NCBI RefSeq assembly: GCF_016894385.1 | Contig: NZ_CP069812.1 | Location: 3,538,501-3,602,500, forward strand | Direction of reading: 5' to 3' | DNA from: Cupriavidus oxalaticus | Lineage (GTDB): Bacteria > Pseudomonadota > Gammaproteobacteria > Burkholderiales > Burkholderiaceae | Length of the DNA: 64,000 bases | Part shown: positions 32,357 to 40,302 of the stretch, one piece after another | Position numbering within the stretch: the stretch's first letter is position 1 | Layout: each line of letters starts with the position of its first letter | The notes under the pieces: generated by a model | What the model was told of the DNA's origin: nothing | What the model saw: the letters and a program-made list of their open reading frames with translations, nothing else | Databases searched by the model: none | Translations under genes and position numbers: made by a program

Positions 32357-33007
32357 TTAAGCTTTGGCTTTGGCCTTGACGGCCGGGGTAACGATGACCT
32401 TGCCGTTCTTGGAGCCAGGGATGGCGCCCTTGACCAGCAGCAGCTTGCGCTCTGCGTCGATCTTGGCGATCTCCAGGTTCTGCACGGTGCGGGTGACATC
32501 GCCCAGGTGACCGGTCATGCGCTTGCCCGGGAACACACGGCCCGGATCCTGCGCCATACCGATCGAGCCCGGCACGTTGTGCGAGCGCGAGTTACCGTGG
32601 GTGGCACGGCCGGAGGCGAAGTGGTAGCGCTTGATGGTACCGGCGTAGCCCTTACCGATGGTCACGCCCTGCACGTCGATCTTCTGACCGACTTCGAACA
32701 GGTCGACCGACAGCGAACCGCCAGCTTGCAGTTCGGCAGCCTTGGCTGCATCGATACGGAATTCGCGGATGATTTCGCCGGCTTCCACGCCGGCTTTGGC
32801 GAGGTGACCCGCCAGCGGCTTGGTGACGCGGCTTGCGCGTCGTGCGCCGAAGGTGACTTGAACCGCGGTGTAACCGTCGGTCTCGTCCGTCTTGATTTGC
32901 GTCACGCGGTTGTCGCCGACCTCGACCACGGTCACGGGAATCGCTTCACCGTCGTCCGTGAAAATACGGGTCATGCCAACCTTGCGACCTACAAGGCCAA
33001 GGCTCAT
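32357..33007 (-). CDS. rplC: 50S ribosomal protein uL3
   Basis: A 216-residue early-assembly protein whose arm reaches the peptidyl-transferase centre. Motifs: [40 protein letters not shown] and [20 protein letters not shown], where the Gln is the usual methylation site. ATG 33007 has GGAG six bases upstream; ATG 33019 would add MEQT. Normally rpsJ lies directly upstream; here a 5-kb cassette intervenes. Confidence 0.98.
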
Positions 33008-33154
33008 GGTTTGCTCCATTCCCAGCTGCGATTGGCCGGGGCTGATTGATACACGAAAACTGTGTTTGCGCTTGTGCGCGGATGGGCTGCGCTAAAGAGG
33101 ACTGCGCGTGGCCAAAACGGCCAACCCACTACCCGGATACACGGGTAGCCTTAC

Positions 33155-33183
33155 ACTATAACCCTTCCCTCAGGAAAGGGCAA
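33155..33183 (-). promoter_or_regulatory. Predicted sigma-70 promoter of rplC (S10 operon)
   Basis: Minus strand: -35 TTGCCC (33178-33183), 17-bp spacer, -10 TATAGT (33155-33160). The predicted start near 33148 is followed at once by a CTACCCG/CGGGTAG hairpin (33129-33148), leaving a leader of about 140 nt. The spacer itself is a near-palindrome CCCTTTCC/GGGAAGGG. Confidence 0.7.
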
Positions 33184-33298: not shown

Positions 33299-33805
33299 TC
33301 AGGCCGCCACCCGCACAAAGCCGCCGCTGTAGAAGACCAGCGGCTCGCCCTCCTCCGCCGCGATCGACTCCACCGCGCCCACGATCAGCAGGTGGTCGCC
33401 AACGGGATCGGCGCGCTCGACGCGGCATGCGAGCGTGGCGAGCGCCTCGTCAAGGTAGGGCACGCCCTGGACGCAGCGGGTGTGGCGCACGCCGGCGAAC
33501 TTGTCGGCCGCGGGGGTGGCGAAGCGGCGCGCCAGGTCGCCGTGCCCGGCGCGCAGGATGCTGACGCCGAACGGCCGACCCGGCTCGAACAGCCCCGCGT
33601 TGGGCGAGTGCGACGCCAGGCTCCACAGGATCAGCGGCGGCGCCAGCGACAGCGACGCGAACGAGTTGACGGTGATGCCGACCGGCCGCTGCTGCGCCGT
33701 GCAGGCACCGATGACCGCCACGCCGGTCGCGTAGCGGCCGCAAACCCGGCGCAGTTCGCGCGGATCGAGCGCCGGCGCGGCATGGGTGACAGTGGTGGCG
33801 TCCAT
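33299..33805 (-). CDS. Flavin reductase partner of a two-component monooxygenase
   Basis: A 168-residue flavin:NAD(P)H reductase-like protein of the HpaC/StyB class, expected to supply reduced FAD by diffusion to the adjacent oxygenase. Family segments: LRRVCGRYATGVAVIGA, PVGITVNSFASLSLAPPLIL and HLLIVGAVESIAAEEGEPLV followed by YSGGFV. It begins 1 nt after the oxygenase stop, so translation is coupled. Last gene of the cassette; no terminator is visible before the rplC promoter. Confidence 0.9.
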   Translation of the reverse strand: MDATTVTHAAPALDPRELRRVCGRYATGVAVIGACTAQQRPVGITVNSFASLSLAPPLILWSLASHSPNAGLFEPGRPFGVSILRAGHGDLARRFATPAADKFAGVRHTRCVQGVPYLDEALATLACRVERADPVGDHLLIVGAVESIAAEEGEPLVFYSGGFVRVAA

Positions 33806-33806
33806 G

Positions 33807-35048
33807 TCAGGCAGCCTGCGGCAGGTGGTGGTCGATCAGCTGGTGGCAGGCCTGCGGGTCCATCCACCACGGGAAAAAGTCCGTCGGATTGTCGAAGCCG
33901 TTGGCGATACGGGCCGCCAGCGCCGGCGATTGCCCCGCAGCGCCCAGCAGCGCCAGGATATGGGGCGGCGGCGGGGTCAGCAGCGAGTTGGTCCATGCCA
34001 CCACATCGCCGGCGTATTGCCAGTAGCGGGCGAAGGTCTGCTCCATCCAGTCGCGGTCGAACGGCCGCTCGCCCTGCGCGAGGATGGCGTCGAGGTAGAC
34101 CTTGCAGCATTTGGCGGCATTGTTGGAGCCTTGCCCGGTGATCGGGTCGTTGACCACCACGGCGTCAGCCATGCCGAATACCAGCCGGCCCGAGGGCAGC
34201 GTCAGCACCGGCTTGCGCACCGTCGGCGCGAAGCGGCCCGACAGGATGCCGTTGTCGTCGGTCAGCGCCACCTGCCCGCAACGCTCGGCCTCCCATGGCG
34301 CATAGGTCCTCAGGATGCGCAGGCTTTCCGCGAGGTGCTGTGCGGGCGTGCGCGCCTCGGCCCAGCGGTCCATCGGGCCGCCCGGGACGCCTTCGAACAC
34401 CATGATCTCGCACGGCCCCGACAGCGTCAGCGCGGGGAAGACGAAATATTCGCCGACGCCCGGGATCAGGTTGAAGCACACCCGCGAGAACGGCTCGCGC
34501 GGCACCATGCCGGTCACGTAGGTCAGCGCCAGCGCGCGCTGCGGCTTGTCGAACGGACTGCGCTGCGCATCGCGCTCGAAGCGGCTGACGATCTCACCCT
34601 TGCCGGCGGCCAGCAGCACCAGCTCGTGTTCGCGCGTCAGGTCTTCCAGCTCGTCCACGCCCACATCGACGATGCGCAGGTCGCCGCCGCGCGCGGCGAA
34701 GGCCTCCATCCACGCCGGCATCTTCAGCCGTTGGTCGACCGCCTGTGCCGCCCGGTCCAGCGGCGCGGCCCAGTCGATGACTTTCGCGCCAGGCTGCTCG
34801 GGATGCGGCACGGCCAGGCCGATGCCCTCGACCGGAGGGCATGTGTCCTCCCACCAGTTGAGGCCGAGGTCGCGCTCGGTCTGCAAGGCGCGATCGAACA
34901 TGCACTGGCTTGACATGACCTTGCCGGCACGGACCTGATCCGGCGTGCGGTTGGACAGCAGTGTGACCTGGTAGCCGGCCGCCTGCAGCCCGAGGGCCAT
35001 TTGCAGCCCGGACTGCCCGGCCCCGACGATGGCGATGCGTTGGCGCAT
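33807..35048 (-). CDS. StyA-type FAD-dependent monooxygenase (styrene/indole oxygenase class)
   Basis: A 413-residue group E flavoprotein monooxygenase, the oxygenase half of a two-component system. It has the Rossmann motif IAIVGAGQSGLQ (GxGxxG at residues 9-14) and the StyA signature VVVNDPITGQGSNNAAK (NDPITGQG at 300-307). Relatives epoxidise styrene or attack the C2-C3 bond of indole. Companion genes (SDR, hydrolase/SnoaL protein, AraC regulator) favour indole over styrene, because no isomerase or phenylacetaldehyde dehydrogenase is present. ATG 35048 is set by AGGAG eight bases upstream. Substrate is an inference. Confidence 0.88.
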   Translation of the reverse strand: MRQRIAIVGAGQSGLQMALGLQAAGYQVTLLSNRTPDQVRAGKVMSSQCMFDRALQTERDLGLNWWEDTCPPVEGIGLAVPHPEQPGAKVIDWAAPLDRAAQAVDQRLKMPAWMEAFAARGGDLRIVDVGVDELEDLTREHELVLLAAGKGEIVSRFERDAQRSPFDKPQRALALTYVTGMVPREPFSRVCFNLIPGVGEYFVFPALTLSGPCEIMVFEGVPGGPMDRWAEARTPAQHLAESLRILRTYAPWEAERCGQVALTDDNGILSGRFAPTVRKPVLTLPSGRLVFGMADAVVVNDPITGQGSNNAAKCCKVYLDAILAQGERPFDRDWMEQTFARYWQYAGDVVAWTNSLLTPPPPHILALLGAAGQSPALAARIANGFDNPTDFFPWWMDPQACHQLIDHHLPQAA

Positions 35049-35094
35049 GATGTTGTCTCCTGGTTGGATGGGGATGGCGTGTGCGGGGATGGCG

Positions 35095-35883
35095 TCAGCC
35101 GGCCAGCTTGCCGATTGCCGGGACGTTCTGCTCCGGGCCCATGGCGCTGTAGCCGCCGTCGACGGCATAATCCGCGCCGGTGACGAAGCTGGCATGGTCG
35201 GAGCACAGGAACAGCACCACCTGTGCAACCTCGTCGGGCTCGCCAACGCGGCCCAGCAGATGGAACGGCGCAGCGACGGCATCGGTACGGGCGCGGTTGC
35301 CGCCGCTGACCTCATCCATCAGCCGGCACCAGGTCCACCCCGGCGAGACCGAGTTCACGCGGATGCGGTCGGGCGCCAGGTCCATCGCCATATTCCGCGT
35401 CAGTTGTGCGATGGCGGCCTTCGAGACCGGATAGAGCCAGCGCCCGGTCTGCGCGACGTTGGCCGAGATGCTGGTGAAGTTGACGATGGCGCCGCCGCCG
35501 CGCGCGCGCATCAGCGGCTGCACCGCCTGCGCCAGCATCACGCCGGACACGACATTGACATCGAGCGCCGCCAGCCAGTCGGCACGGCTGGAGCGGAAGC
35601 CGTCGTCGAGATAGGTGCAGGCCAGGTTGACCAGGAAGTCCACGCCGCCGAAGCGCTGCGCGACCTGGCCCACGGCATCGCGGACCTGTTCGTCCTGCGT
35701 GATATCGGCCGCGATAAAAAGCGCGTCCTTGCCCAGCTCCGCGGCAACGCGCTCACCGTTGGCGGCATCGATATCGAAAATCGCCACCCGCGCGCCGGCC
35801 GCGACGAAGGCCCGCGCCACGCCCGCGCCGATCAGCGTGGCGCCGCCGGTGACGATGGCCACCTTGTCCTGCAATCCCTTCAT
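35095..35883 (-). CDS. Short-chain dehydrogenase/reductase
   Basis: A 262-residue classical SDR. The cofactor motif is TGGATLIGAG (residues 12-21), an acidic residue after beta-2 (FDID) suggests NAD, and the catalytic pair is YPVSK (Tyr151, Lys155) with Ser138/Ser140 upstream. The usual NNAG motif reads NLAC. ATG 35883 has AAGGAG six bases upstream; ATG 35904 is further and lacks one. Encoded between the hydrolase fusion and the oxygenase, it probably oxidises a dihydrodiol or hydroxy intermediate (inference). Confidence 0.88.
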   Translation of the reverse strand: MKGLQDKVAIVTGGATLIGAGVARAFVAAGARVAIFDIDAANGERVAAELGKDALFIAADITQDEQVRDAVGQVAQRFGGVDFLVNLACTYLDDGFRSSRADWLAALDVNVVSGVMLAQAVQPLMRARGGGAIVNFTSISANVAQTGRWLYPVSKAAIAQLTRNMAMDLAPDRIRVNSVSPGWTWCRLMDEVSGGNRARTDAVAAPFHLLGRVGEPDEVAQVVLFLCSDHASFVTGADYAVDGGYSAMGPEQNVPAIGKLAG

Positions 35884-35969
35884 GGTTGTCTCCTTGGTTG
35901 TCACCGGTACGGCGATAAGGATTGGGCAGGCCTCTGCGGGCCTGCTCCAGGTCGATGCCCCAACGCGCG

Positions 35970-37199
35970 TTACTTGCCCTCGCTCTCCTGCCAGCGCGCC
36001 ATCAGCGTGTTCGACGGCAGCATCTCGTCCACCAGCTTGCGCGCTGTCTCCACGCCCGCCACCGGCAGACCCGCCGGGTCGAGCTTGCCGATCTGCACCA
36101 GCACGCTGGCCTGGTCCCAGTAGATATGCTCGTGATAGAGCTTGTCGCCGCGGAACTTGACGATGGCGATCAGCGGGATCTCCACGCGCTTGCCCGTGGG
36201 CGGCACGCCCGGCAGCATCCAGTCGATCTCGCAGGTATGCGTGAAGCAGAACAGCAGCTCGTCGACGATCTGCGTGGCGCCGACCGTGCGCGACAGCGGG
36301 ATCAGCGTGGTATCGGCCGGGTTGCTGTGGACGAAGTGGTTCTGGTAGAAGCGCCGCAGCTGCGCGTAGCCGACGCCGCCGGTCATGGTCGGGATGTGGT
36401 TCACATAGGGCTGCGGCACCATCGTCGCCATGGTGGCATCGACGTCGCGCGTGGCGAATTCATACTCGCAGTGCTTGTCCCACAGCGCGGAGAAGTCATA
36501 GTGCGGACCCATCTCGCGGCGCAGCGCGGCGATCGAGCGCTGGTGCGCCATCAGCGCCGAGGGCTTGTCGAAGTGCTCGCCGCCGGCGCGCGCGAAGGCG
36601 TGGTCGACCCCCGGATAGACGTAGACGTCGATGTTGTCGCGCCCGGCGAGGGCTTCGCGGATCGCGGCCTGTGCCTGCGGCGGGCAGAAGCCGTCCTTCT
36701 CCGCGATATGCAGCACGAGGCGGCCTCGCACTTGAGCGGCTTCGCCAAGTGCGTGCTCGATGCCCACACCGTAATAGGCCACAGCACAGGCCACGTCCGG
36801 CAGCCGGCACGCCGCCAGGTAGGCCAGCTTGCCGCCCAGGCAGAAGCCGAGCACGCCAGTCAGGCCGACACATTCCGGGCGAGCGCGCAGCGCGTCCAGC
36901 GCCGCGCCCACGTCCTGCACGCCCCTGGCCTCGTCGAACTGCTGGTACAGGCCCAGCGCGCGCTGGAAATCCTCGCCGCGATCGGTCAGCTCGATGCCAG
37001 GCGCGAGGCGCCAGAACAGGTCGGGAACCAGCACCGTGTAACCCTCTTCGGCGTAATAGTCGGCGACCTGCCGCATGGTGGCATTGACGCCGAAGATCTC
37101 CTGACACAGCACGATTCCCGGACCCTTGCCTGTCGCGGGAACGGCGAGATAGCCGCTGAAACTGCCTTCGGGGGTCTGGATCTGGATGGTCTGGCCCAT
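35970..37199 (-). CDS. Dienelactone hydrolase-family protein fused to a SnoaL-like domain
   Basis: A 409-residue two-domain protein. Residues 1-230 are an alpha/beta hydrolase of the dienelactone hydrolase family with the full catalytic set: Glu34 (CQEIFG), Cys120 (GFCLGG), Asp169 (EKDGF) and His200 (GVDHAF). Residues about 235-400 resemble a SnoaL/NTF2-like fold (YDFSALWDKHCEYEFATRD, HEHIYWDQASVLVQIGKLD). It is the first gene of the operon, with AGGAG nine bases before ATG 37199. The actual substrate is unknown; possible roles are hydrolysis or dehydration of an oxidised heterocycle. Confidence 0.87.
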   Translation of the reverse strand: MGQTIQIQTPEGSFSGYLAVPATGKGPGIVLCQEIFGVNATMRQVADYYAEEGYTVLVPDLFWRLAPGIELTDRGEDFQRALGLYQQFDEARGVQDVGAALDALRARPECVGLTGVLGFCLGGKLAYLAACRLPDVACAVAYYGVGIEHALGEAAQVRGRLVLHIAEKDGFCPPQAQAAIREALAGRDNIDVYVYPGVDHAFARAGGEHFDKPSALMAHQRSIAALRREMGPHYDFSALWDKHCEYEFATRDVDATMATMVPQPYVNHIPTMTGGVGYAQLRRFYQNHFVHSNPADTTLIPLSRTVGATQIVDELLFCFTHTCEIDWMLPGVPPTGKRVEIPLIAIVKFRGDKLYHEHIYWDQASVLVQIGKLDPAGLPVAGVETARKLVDEMLPSNTLMARWQESEGK

Positions 37200-37519
37200 G
37201 GCCTGCTCTCCTTGTCGTTGTCTCTTTACGGTGTCTGGTGGGGGCTGCCGTGCTGGAATCCATCATGGCGGCTCCGCACCGCAGCAAACTAGCCGCCGGG
37301 CGCAGCGGCTATCCGATTAGTGCAGGAAACTGCCGACCCGGTCAACGCCGTGGCGCTGGCGCCGCACGGCGGCCGTGGCCCATCCGCTATAGTGGATCGC
37401 GTGGGAAACCGATTGCCGCGCGGCCTTCGACCGCCGGCCCGGACCCTGACCATGCGGTGCGCACGGCGCCAGGCCAGCCTGCCCGGCAGCACCGCGGTCC
37501 ACGCCAGAGGAGCGAGACA
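37200..37519. promoter_or_regulatory. Divergent control region of the oxygenase cassette
   Basis: 320 bp between the hydrolase-fusion gene (minus) and the AraC-family gene (plus). Two similar motifs occur in the same orientation: GGAAAC then TGCCG at 37325-37335, and again at 37404-37418 with 4 extra bases between the halves. A TATAGT lies at 37388-37393 without a matching -35. These are only candidates for regulator sites. Confidence 0.4.
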
Positions 37520-38530
37520 ATGCAGCTGCCCCCCGCCGCCACGGCCGCCGGACCGTTGGCGCGCGCCCTGCTCGGCGACCCCGCGCGGTGCGTGTTCGCC
37601 TCGACCGACGTAGCCGAGACGCGCGCCGCCGTCGGCCGCGTGTTCAAGCCGCACCGGCTGGAAGTGCGTGGTACCCGGCTGCAGGCGCGCATGCACCATG
37701 CCCCGCTGGGCGCGGTGTCGTTCAACCGGTTGGCCTACGGCGCCGATGTCACCATCGATCCCGGCCCGCTGGGCGACTTCCTGCTGGTGCAGATGCCGCT
37801 GTCGGGCCAGGCCGATATCCGCTGCGGCGACCAGCACATCCTGTCCACGCCGGACAGCGCCTCGGTGCTGACGCCGGCCGACGCGCTCGCGATGCGCTGG
37901 AGCGCGGACAGCGACCAGCTGATCGTGCGCATCGAGCGCAGCGCGCTCGACCGGATCTGCGCCGCCCACCTGGGCCGGCGTCCCGAGCGCCCGCTGCGCT
38001 TTGCGCTCGGCATGGCGTGGCGCACCGGCGCCTGGTACGAGCTGATGCGCTACCTCGCCGCGATGCTCGAGACGGCGCCGGAATCGGCCCGGCATCCCCT
38101 CACCGCCTGCCAGCTCGAGCAACTGGTGATCGGCACGCTGCTGACCGCGCAGCCGCACAGCCTGTCGGACGCGCTGCGCGAACACGGCAAGCCGCTGGCG
38201 CCGCGCCATGTGAAGGTGGTGGAGGAATACATCCATGCCAACGCCGGCGCGGAGTTGACGCCCGCCCTGCTGGCGGAGGTGGCCGGGGTCAGCGTGCGCA
38301 GCCTGTTCGCCGGGTTCCGCGAGCATCGCGGGACGGGACCGATGGCCTACCTGCGCACGGTGCGGCTGGAGCGGGTGCGGCGGGACCTGCTGAACGATGC
38401 ATCGGTGGCATCGGTCAGCGCCGCGGCATTGCGCTGGGGTTTTGCGCATCTGGGGCGCTTCAGCGCGGAATATCGGCGGGCATTCGGTGAATGTCCGGCG
38501 CAGACGCTGCGGCGGCGTGGGGCGGGTTGA
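37520..38530 (+). CDS. AraC-family transcriptional regulator of the oxygenase cassette
   Basis: A 336-residue regulator. The N-terminal ~200 residues are an AraC-binding-like (cupin-type) domain (LGAVSFNRLAYGADVTIDPG; FLLVQMPLSGQADIRCGDQ). The C-terminal ~100 residues form two helix-turn-helices (TPALLAEVAGVSVRSLFAGF; VSAAALRWGFAHLGRFSAEY) ending in the AraC consensus PAQTLRRR. ATG 37520 has AGGAG eight bases upstream. It is divergent from the four-gene operon, the usual layout for a local activator; the effector is unknown. Confidence 0.88.
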   Translation: MQLPPAATAAGPLARALLGDPARCVFASTDVAETRAAVGRVFKPHRLEVRGTRLQARMHHAPLGAVSFNRLAYGADVTIDPGPLGDFLLVQMPLSGQADIRCGDQHILSTPDSASVLTPADALAMRWSADSDQLIVRIERSALDRICAAHLGRRPERPLRFALGMAWRTGAWYELMRYLAAMLETAPESARHPLTACQLEQLVIGTLLTAQPHSLSDALREHGKPLAPRHVKVVEEYIHANAGAELTPALLAEVAGVSVRSLFAGFREHRGTGPMAYLRTVRLERVRRDLLNDASVASVSAAALRWGFAHLGRFSAEYRRAFGECPAQTLRRRGAG

Positions 38531-38593: not shown

Positions 38594-38625
38594 GCTCCCC
38601 TCTCCCGCAGGCGGGAGAGGGGAGC
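38594..38625. terminator. 15-bp perfect palindromic hairpin after the AraC gene
   Basis: GCTCCCCTCTCCCGC (38594-38608) pairs exactly with 38611-38625 across a 2-nt gap. It resembles the CTCTCCC palindrome at 2185. No strong U-run follows; it may be a dispersed palindrome acting as a terminator for the AraC gene. Confidence 0.6.
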
Positions 38626-38657: not shown

Positions 38658-38689
38658 AAAAACGGCGAACCCTACGGTTCGCCGTTTTT
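38658..38689. terminator. Bidirectional intrinsic terminator after rpsJ
   Basis: A 14-bp perfect stem AAAAACGGCGAACC / GGTTCGCCGTTTTT with a 4-nt loop gives a U-tract on both strands. It ends the str-tuf-rpsJ transcript and blocks the convergent AraC transcript. Confidence 0.92.
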
Positions 38690-38724: not shown

Positions 38725-39033
38725 TTACACCTTGATCTCGACGTCCACGCCGGCCGGCAGGTCGAGCTTCATCAGCGCGTCAACCGTCTTGTCGGTCGGA
38801 TCGACGATGTCCATCAGGCGCTGGTGAGTGCGGATCTCGAACTGATCGCGGCTGGTCTTGTTGACGTGCGGCGAACGCAGGATGTCGAAGCGCTGGATGC
38901 GGGTCGGCAGGGGCACCGGGCCCTTGACGATCGCGCCGGTACGCTTGGCGGTATCCACGATTTCGGCAGCCGACTGGTCGATCAGGCGATAGTCGAAAGC
39001 CTTCAGGCGGATACGGATCTTCTGGTTCTGCAT
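38725..39033 (-). CDS. rpsJ: 30S ribosomal protein uS10 / NusE
   Basis: A 102-residue 30S protein that also serves as NusE in antitermination. Motifs: [39 protein letters not shown] and [20 protein letters not shown]. Here it is joined to tufA (78 bp) and followed by a terminator, so it is transcriptionally part of the str unit and detached from rplC. Confidence 0.98.

Positions 39034-39111: not shown

Positions 39112-40302
<1,191 letters not shown>

Follow-up and report, generated by a model that had tools for sequence, protein, structure and literature searches.

A putative indole-degradation cassette between rpsJ and rplC in Cupriavidus and its repeated reduction to iifA

The conversion of indole to anthranilate is encoded in Acinetobacter by the operon iifABCDE with its regulator iifR, and in Cupriavidus sp. 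SHE by the ind cluster (PMC4577076, PMC6221969). In the published scheme, IifC and IifD oxidize indole to the cis-2,3-dihydrodiol, IifB leads from there to 3-hydroxyindolin-2-one, and IifA to anthranilate (PMC6221969, PMC10934121). The reported sizes are 416 aa for IifA, a dienelactone hydrolase (DLH), 261 aa for IifB, a short-chain dehydrogenase (SDR), 412 aa for IifC, and 176 aa for IifD; IifR carries the AraC_binding_2 and HTH_18 domains (PMC4577076). Gene insertions at the boundaries of the ribosomal str and S10 operons have also been described, such as bfd-bfr in Gammaproteobacteria and ilv-leu in Bacilli, and 77 of 115 events were attributed to gene insertions (PMC8046335). Here, we analyze a stretch of 64,000 nucleotides of Cupriavidus oxalaticus (contig NZ_CP069812.1, positions 3,538,501 to 3,602,500; hereafter, the window), in which a cluster of the iif type lies between rpsJ and rplC. 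Very probably, an iifR-iifABCD cassette under its own control was inserted long ago at a boundary between a terminator and a promoter, and was then lost repeatedly, with iifA being kept in several lineages. The insertion is real, old, and mostly ordinary, as both the pathway and insertions at such permissive boundaries are known; the repeated decay to iifA is unusual.

An iif-type cluster at the rpsJ–rplC junction

In the window, rpsJ and rplC lie 5.7 kb apart on the same strand and are separated by five genes. The original prediction had described this arrangement and had called the five genes as AraC, DLH/SnoaL, SDR, oxygenase, and flavin reductase; open reading frames (ORFs) and Pfam matches confirm all of it. 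The ribosomal-region genes covered near the junction are rpsG, fusA, tuf, rpsJ, rplC, rplD, rplW, rplB, and rpsS, and those in this list other than rpsJ, tuf, and rplC were identified by eye from their translations. The features are as follows.

39112–40302 (−): tuf (ORFs, Pfam).
38725–39033 (−): rpsJ (S10), end gene of the upstream unit rpsG-fusA-tuf-rpsJ (Pfam Ribosomal_S10).
38658–38689 (no strand): hairpin AAAAACGGCGAACC-loop-GGTTCGCCGTTTTT, a probable bidirectional terminator of the convergent rpsJ and iifR (16 bp by RNAfold, and conservation).
38595–38624 (no strand): repetitive extragenic palindromic (REP)-like repeat adjoining rpsJ, incidental (many genomic copies).
37520–38530 (+): iifR-like regulator of the AraC/XylS family, oriented divergently to the operon (Pfam AraC_binding_2 and HTH_18).
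37307–37329 (−): operator/promoter-like element TTTCCTGCACTAATCGGATAGCC, upstream of iifA (conservation in full junctions).
35970–37199 (−): iifA-like DLH-SnoaL protein of 409 aa, predicted cofactor-independent oxygenase yielding anthranilate (Pfam DLH and SnoaL_2).
35095–35889 (−): iifB-like SDR (Pfam adh_short_C2).
33807–35048 (−): iifC-like predicted indole monooxygenase of 413 aa (Pfam Smoa_sbd, PDB match).
33299–33805 (−): iifD-like flavin reductase (Pfam Flavin_Reduct).
33155–33183 (−): candidate rplC promoter TTGCCC-N17-TATAGT (pattern conserved across junctions).
33008–33154 (−): rplC leader, with the hairpin CTACCCG-n6-CGGGTAG and a conserved stretch 5′ of the start codon (by eye).
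32357–33007 (−): rplC (L3), opening gene of the downstream unit (Pfam Ribosomal_L3).

Judged by sequence, the cassette is an iifR-iifABCD-type (iif/ind) cluster for the conversion of indole to anthranilate. Its protein families and gene order equal those published for iifR/iifABCD, and the protein lengths are close (PMC4577076 Table 2, PMC6221969). The same papers bear out the guess made in the original prediction, which had named Acinetobacter and Cupriavidus as carriers of indole clusters. The monooxygenase matches the structure PDB 7z4x_A with 645 bits and the StyA structure 3ihm_A with 139 bits, which places it with the indole (IifC) rather than the StyA type. The 7z4x entry is itself titled putative dehydrogenase/oxygenase subunit, and we take it to be an Acinetobacter indole monooxygenase. 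A styrene monooxygenase StyAB was considered and rejected, the NCBIfam scores being 213.7 bits for StyA (cut-off 550) and 103 for StyB (cut-off 200). The partners iifA (DLH), iifB (SDR), and iifD (flavin reductase) are recognized by Pfam and by length, and the opposed regulator of the AraC/XylS family has AndR as its top NCBIfam match (184 bits, under the cut-off of 350).

The likeness to the clusters of Acinetobacter and strain SHE, which share the five protein families, the order A-B-C-D, and an opposed AraC-type regulator, is to their published descriptions rather than to their sequences (PMC4577076, PMC6221969). A regulator located upstream of iifA is also described in P. syringae pv. actinidiae (PMC4577076, PMC6221969). 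Unlike the iif operon of Acinetobacter, the cluster of the window is sited between rpsJ and rplC, and it lacks iifE, a MetA-type porin gene, at the operon end, where iifD is directly followed by rplC. This absence is not decisive, because a role of iifE has been ruled out according to a review (PMC6221969) and a counterpart is also absent from the cluster as published for Thauera sp. K11. Cupriavidus sp. IDO, an indole degrader for which multiple iif copies are reported (PMC6221969), has a copy at the junction (L014).

An assembly error at the junction is very unlikely: the full interval is found once in the genome (6.69 Mb, two contigs), 3.57 Mb into the contig of 3.89 Mb, and its order is repeated in 17 of 18 named loci described below. 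The G+C content is 69.7% in the cassette and 62.3% in the sequence on both sides; this contrast was not taken as evidence of transfer, because the flanks are largely ribosomal and themselves unusual. Dozens of partial copies of the REP-like palindrome at 38595–38624 occur on both contigs. Among RNA families, only sub-threshold matches to mir-598 and Xoo2 were obtained and were taken as chance.

Distribution in the genus and the surviving iifA

A sample of 60 genomes of the genus (that of the window and 59 others) was searched with rpsJ, rplC, and iifC, which were found in 56 and 57 genomes and, as a relative, in 39, respectively. The junction is full in 32 genomes, reduced in nine (G014, G020, G024, G032, G033, G037, G042, G046, G057), empty or with traces only in 15 (G001, G008, G009, G011, G012, G013, G026, G029, G034, G035, G044, G048, G050, G052, G059), and unreadable in four (G022, G045, G047, G051). 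All or part of the insert is thus present at 41 of the 56 readable junctions, and it is not a novelty of a single strain. The full class takes in the window, G003 (split iifC), and G006 (junction cut by contig ends). Place and orientation are the same in all 32 full junctions. Excluding the window, the regulator, iifA, and iifB are intact in 31 of 31, iifC in 30, and iifD in 28, a gene being intact when one match covers at least 90% of the protein without a stop. Among the empty junctions, G059 retains the final 40 codons of iifD.

In a comparison of named loci, covering the best 80 of 447 relatives and overlapping in part with the 60 genomes, the 18 loci with oxygenase identity of at least 85% (L009–L026) are all junction copies, 16 recorded as Cupriavidus, one as Ralstonia sp., and one as Burkholderiaceae bacterium. 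Gene order, including both flanking genes, is identical in 17; L022 stops within the flavin reductase gene. The locus recorded as Ralstonia sp. 25mfcol4.1 (L026) has a junction of the Cupriavidus type, and the genus given in its record appears outdated.

Some junctions have individual peculiarities. In G003 (L123), iifC is split into two pieces in different frames in an otherwise full cassette. In G019 (L138 6300–8370), about 2 kb of additional DNA with broken esterase-like frames (by eye) lies between iifR and rpsJ. In G022 (L175 850–2456), a transposase-like frame (by eye) is at the contig end past rplC and the cassette genes are unmatched; a close iifA was found nowhere in this genome, which may represent one further loss of the cassette.

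The reduced junctions show a consistent pattern. The gene iifA is intact in eight of the nine, iifD in one (G014), and iifR, iifB, and iifC in none. The ratio of nonsynonymous to synonymous substitution rates (dN/dS) of iifA is 0.141 for the pair G020–G032 and 0.046 for G024–G033, and relative to full relatives it is 0.038–0.051 for G046 and 0.107–0.120 for G057; nine pairs of full genomes give 0.026–0.106. Nonsynonymous changes are far under the neutral expectation on six reduced branches and in one pair. The surviving iifA is, on these substitution patterns, under purifying selection, part of which may predate the reduction on single branches. The downstream breakpoints of G020 and G032 are alike by eye, so the two probably descend from one deletion. 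In about six lineages, then, the regulator and two or three other enzyme genes would have decayed with iifA kept intact by selection. Neither the rpsJ–rplC address nor the surviving iifA was found in the titles and partial abstracts of the listed open-access papers on the site and on indole or dienelactone hydrolase in Cupriavidus.

Chance retention offers another account, in which the iifA genes that remain are passive relics that deletion has yet to remove. It draws on G042, where iifA reads broken (in this genome, of 86% completeness, rplC is also in two pieces), and on hints of slightly relaxed constraint in G020–G032, G046, and G057. The contrast between iifA and the other four genes speaks against it, as do the changes in the pair G020–G032, of which only 14 of 44 are nonsynonymous, when neutral evolution would give a fraction of about 0.71 (p = 4e-7 in a test against 0.69). 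Passive retention is thus rather unlikely.

A possible reason for the retention lies elsewhere in the genome. A second iifC-type gene, about 58–60% identical, occurs in 11 genomes of the genus together with genes for an AraC regulator, an SDR, and a flavin reductase, and in these 11 genomes no DLH match was found in the 12–15 kb around it. This second cluster is present in seven of the nine reduced genomes, four of the 32 full ones, and none of the 15 empty ones; it is carried by G039, and its iifC-type gene is split in G042. The make-up resembles that of the Providencia GS cluster, which contains a cyclase, an SDR, a monooxygenase, a flavin reductase, an oxidoreductase, a porin, and an AraC regulator (PMC9871250). 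Past the flavin reductase, the likeness is to L241 only, which continues with flavin adenine dinucleotide (FAD) oxidoreductase-like, cyclase-like, and porin-like proteins (by eye and by likeness to Providencia GS); the other ten are matched for the AraC regulator, SDR, monooxygenase, and flavin reductase. Besides its junction copy, G006 (contig C80, L252) has a cluster of yet another, third kind, with a StyA-type protein at 41%, a flavin reductase at 42%, and an SDR at 61% identity.

Because most genomes with a retained iifA have an iif-like cluster that lacks it, the retained gene may complete the second pathway. A tentative extension is that the boundary acted as a long-lived safe harbor in which selection distilled an acquired catabolic regulon to roughly iifA in about six lineages, where IifA may either complete the other iif-like pathway of the genome, which often lies on a different replicon, or have gained a new role in clearing reactive oxindoles. 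In at least three genomes, the surviving iifA would then work with its original control element gone. Activation of iifA by the AraC regulator of the second cluster found no support, as an element like TTTCCTGCACTAATCGGATAGCC exceeds the best shuffle upstream of the SDR gene of that cluster in none of the 11 genomes. The repeated survival of iifA yields a testable prediction as to the step of indole degradation whose loss is costly, and the junctions together form a replicated natural experiment on the erosion of a five-gene pathway.

History of the insert

A tree of the ribosomal genes, built for 57 genomes of the genus and three outgroups (G191, G123, and G082 of genus g24, tentatively Ralstonia) on an alignment of the S10 region with 8,584 columns, places a clade of six empty genomes at the base, and the remaining empty and reduced tips are scattered among full ones. 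Under hand-counted parsimony with irreversible losses, this requires a single gain, about five losses of the whole set, and some six events of reduction ({G020, G032}, {G024, G033, G042}, G014, G037, G046, and G057). By eye, most groups of the ribosomal tree reappear in the iifA tree. To judge from these phylogenies, a single old insertion early in the genus, followed by mainly vertical inheritance and repeated loss, is the most likely history.

A recent mobile insertion, spreading among strains at a hot spot, could also produce such patchy presence (32 full, nine reduced, and 15 empty junctions), especially as the junction took up other DNA in G019 and G022 and the iifA tree departs from the ribosomal one in a few groups. 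Against this, place and orientation are constant in all full junctions, the trees agree in most groups, and the gaps between genes in the window are at most about 320 bp, with no room for an integrase or an insertion sequence. Some full copies are down to 85% identity with IifC of the window and hence old, and remnants of loss are seen in the reduced and empty junctions of G014, G037, and G059 (by match) and G024 (by eye). We therefore regard recent mobility as unlikely.

Boundary, control, and relatives outside the genus

Empty junctions reveal what the cassette was inserted into. After the rpsJ stop, those inspected contain a GC-rich hairpin with a T-run, a variable segment of about 60–190 bp, a TTGnnn-N17-TATAGT-like box, the leader hairpin, and rplC. 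The terminator-like hairpin is found by pattern in 54 of 57 junctions (56 of the genus and G191), and G027, G058, and G042 are similar by eye. The rplC promoter box followed by CTACCC is found by pattern in 56 of 58 junctions (these 57 and G062); of the two misses, G038 has TATAAT by eye, which the pattern disallowed, and G006 has no sequence there. Both signals are kept in empty, reduced, and full junctions and in the outgroup G191, and the cassette sits between them. Hence, as far as sequence can tell, the insert lies between complete transcription units with conserved flanks, and breaks none. An insertion midway in one ribosomal operon is rejected, since members of the genus free of the insert have the hairpin and the rplC promoter at this place. 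Two parts of the original prediction find no support here, namely a cassette lodged within one transcription unit and expression that may follow ribosome synthesis, as the site is flanked by a probable rpsJ terminator and a separate candidate rplC promoter.

These data suggest that iifR-iifABCD entered, most likely once and early in the genus, the short stretch that separates the rpsJ terminator from the rplC promoter. Because the ribosomal units already ended and started separately there, the insertion would have cost little. As in the str-S10 cases, nonribosomal genes have entered an inter-operon region; unlike them, the boundary is after rpsJ and the inserted DNA is a catabolic unit with its regulator, which decayed to iifA in several lineages (PMC8046335). 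The locus is in this sense a replicated natural experiment in adding genes to the most conserved cluster without harm, at a terminator-promoter boundary. It also means that the rpsJ–rplC interval is not conserved in the genus, which bears on operon models and on expression tools built on the region.

The control of the cassette appears to be its own. The element TTTCCTGCACTAATCGGATAGCC occurs with at most two mismatches in 32 of 32 full junctions and with at most one in six of nine reduced junctions; it is lost in G020, G033, and G046 (9–10 mismatches), and the 15 empty junctions have 8–11 mismatches. Outside the genus, 42 upstream regions were available (loci L027–L088 of other genera with a placeable iifA start), and in 31 of them the best match to a related element scores above every one of 20 single-base shuffles. 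Of the 11 failures, eight concern the sole or main iifA of Marinobacterium stanieri or of Burkholderia-type loci, and the distance of the element from iifA varies even among the 31 successes. We infer that TTTCCTGCACTAATCGGATAGCC comprises the IifR operator and the promoter. The cassette would form a separate transcription unit that starts at the iifA promoter and is controlled by the divergent AraC-type activator, predicted to respond to indole, with IifC/IifD producing the 2,3-dihydrodiol, IifB 3-hydroxyindolin-2-one, and IifA anthranilate.

The divergent regulator and the conserved operator-like element make co-expression with the ribosomal genes not expected. A set sited for such co-expression, as a growth-coupled detoxification of indole, would fit the shared direction of the enzyme and ribosomal genes and the intact iifA of G020, G033, and G046, where the operator-like element is lost. 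It is at odds with the hairpin retained after rpsJ in full and reduced junctions, with the separate rplC promoter, and with the regulator and element present in every full junction, and we consider it quite improbable.

Several observations weigh against an old insertion at a terminator-promoter boundary, with vertical inheritance and a useful iifA. A generic terminator scan of the window did not list the hairpin at 38658–38689, and the promoter-scan hit for rplC was not above shuffles (one found, mean 0.8); because the generic scan gave no support, both calls rest on conservation. T-tailed terminators were unseen in most of 20 junctions of other genera, being identified by eye in G082, G088, and G160 only, and promoter-like boxes before rplC were seen by eye in these 20; a fully closed boundary thus holds for the genus and some relatives, not for the family. 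The ribosomal tree has two deep nodes of weak support (0.73 and 0.72). Within the iifA tree, G015, G024, and G033 shift group and G057 is weakly paired with G021, so that some recombination of the cassette is possible. The junction copies form one group in the trees of named loci with support of just 0.053 (IifC) and 0.825 (IifA). The top dN/dS values of reduced genomes (0.141 and 0.120) exceed that of the top full pair (0.106), and nonsynonymous changes number 8 on the G046 branch and 14.5 on that of G057, versus 0 and 5.2 in full sisters; constraint on iifA may be slightly relaxed in these two and in G020–G032. The association with the second cluster (Fisher p 0.0004 for reduced versus full, 0.026 for iifA-bearing versus empty genomes) treats related genomes as independent, so that these p values exaggerate the strength of the association. 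Finally, the reduced genomes G046 and G057 are without the second cluster and a Providencia cluster of this second kind has no nearby DLH match, and because of this completion by iifA is not always needed.

In a family sample of 200 genomes (22 from the genus, 178 others), the rpsJ–rplC gap is 131–293 bp (median 211) in 113 of the 113 measurable genomes of other genera, that is, those among the best ~150 rpsJ and rplC matches listed. The check proposed by the original prediction thus shows an insert that is not shared by all relatives, and relative to the family the cassette is indeed an insertion. An arrangement ancestral to the family and lost elsewhere would fit the full sets common across the genus, yet these 113 short gaps, the short gap of the basal clade of the genus, and the close cluster L273, outside the genus and with neither an rpsJ nor an rplC match in 18 kb, make it highly improbable. 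An iifR match is likewise absent from these 18 kb; the iifA, iifB, iifC, and iifD of L273 are 81%, 84%, 77%, and 72% identical. On the question of a donor, the IifC and IifA trees (covering the window plus as many as 61 of the 80 named loci) conflict and are weak at the relevant nodes. Among the best 120 matches listed, the closest placed iifA outside Cupriavidus is from Burkholderia (82%) and Paraburkholderia phenoliruptrix (81%), and the closest placed iifC from Paraburkholderia phenoliruptrix (77%) and another (76%). In G104 (L274), from another genus, a stretch of 14 kb without other iif matches carries a DLH-SnoaL gene 68% identical to iifA.

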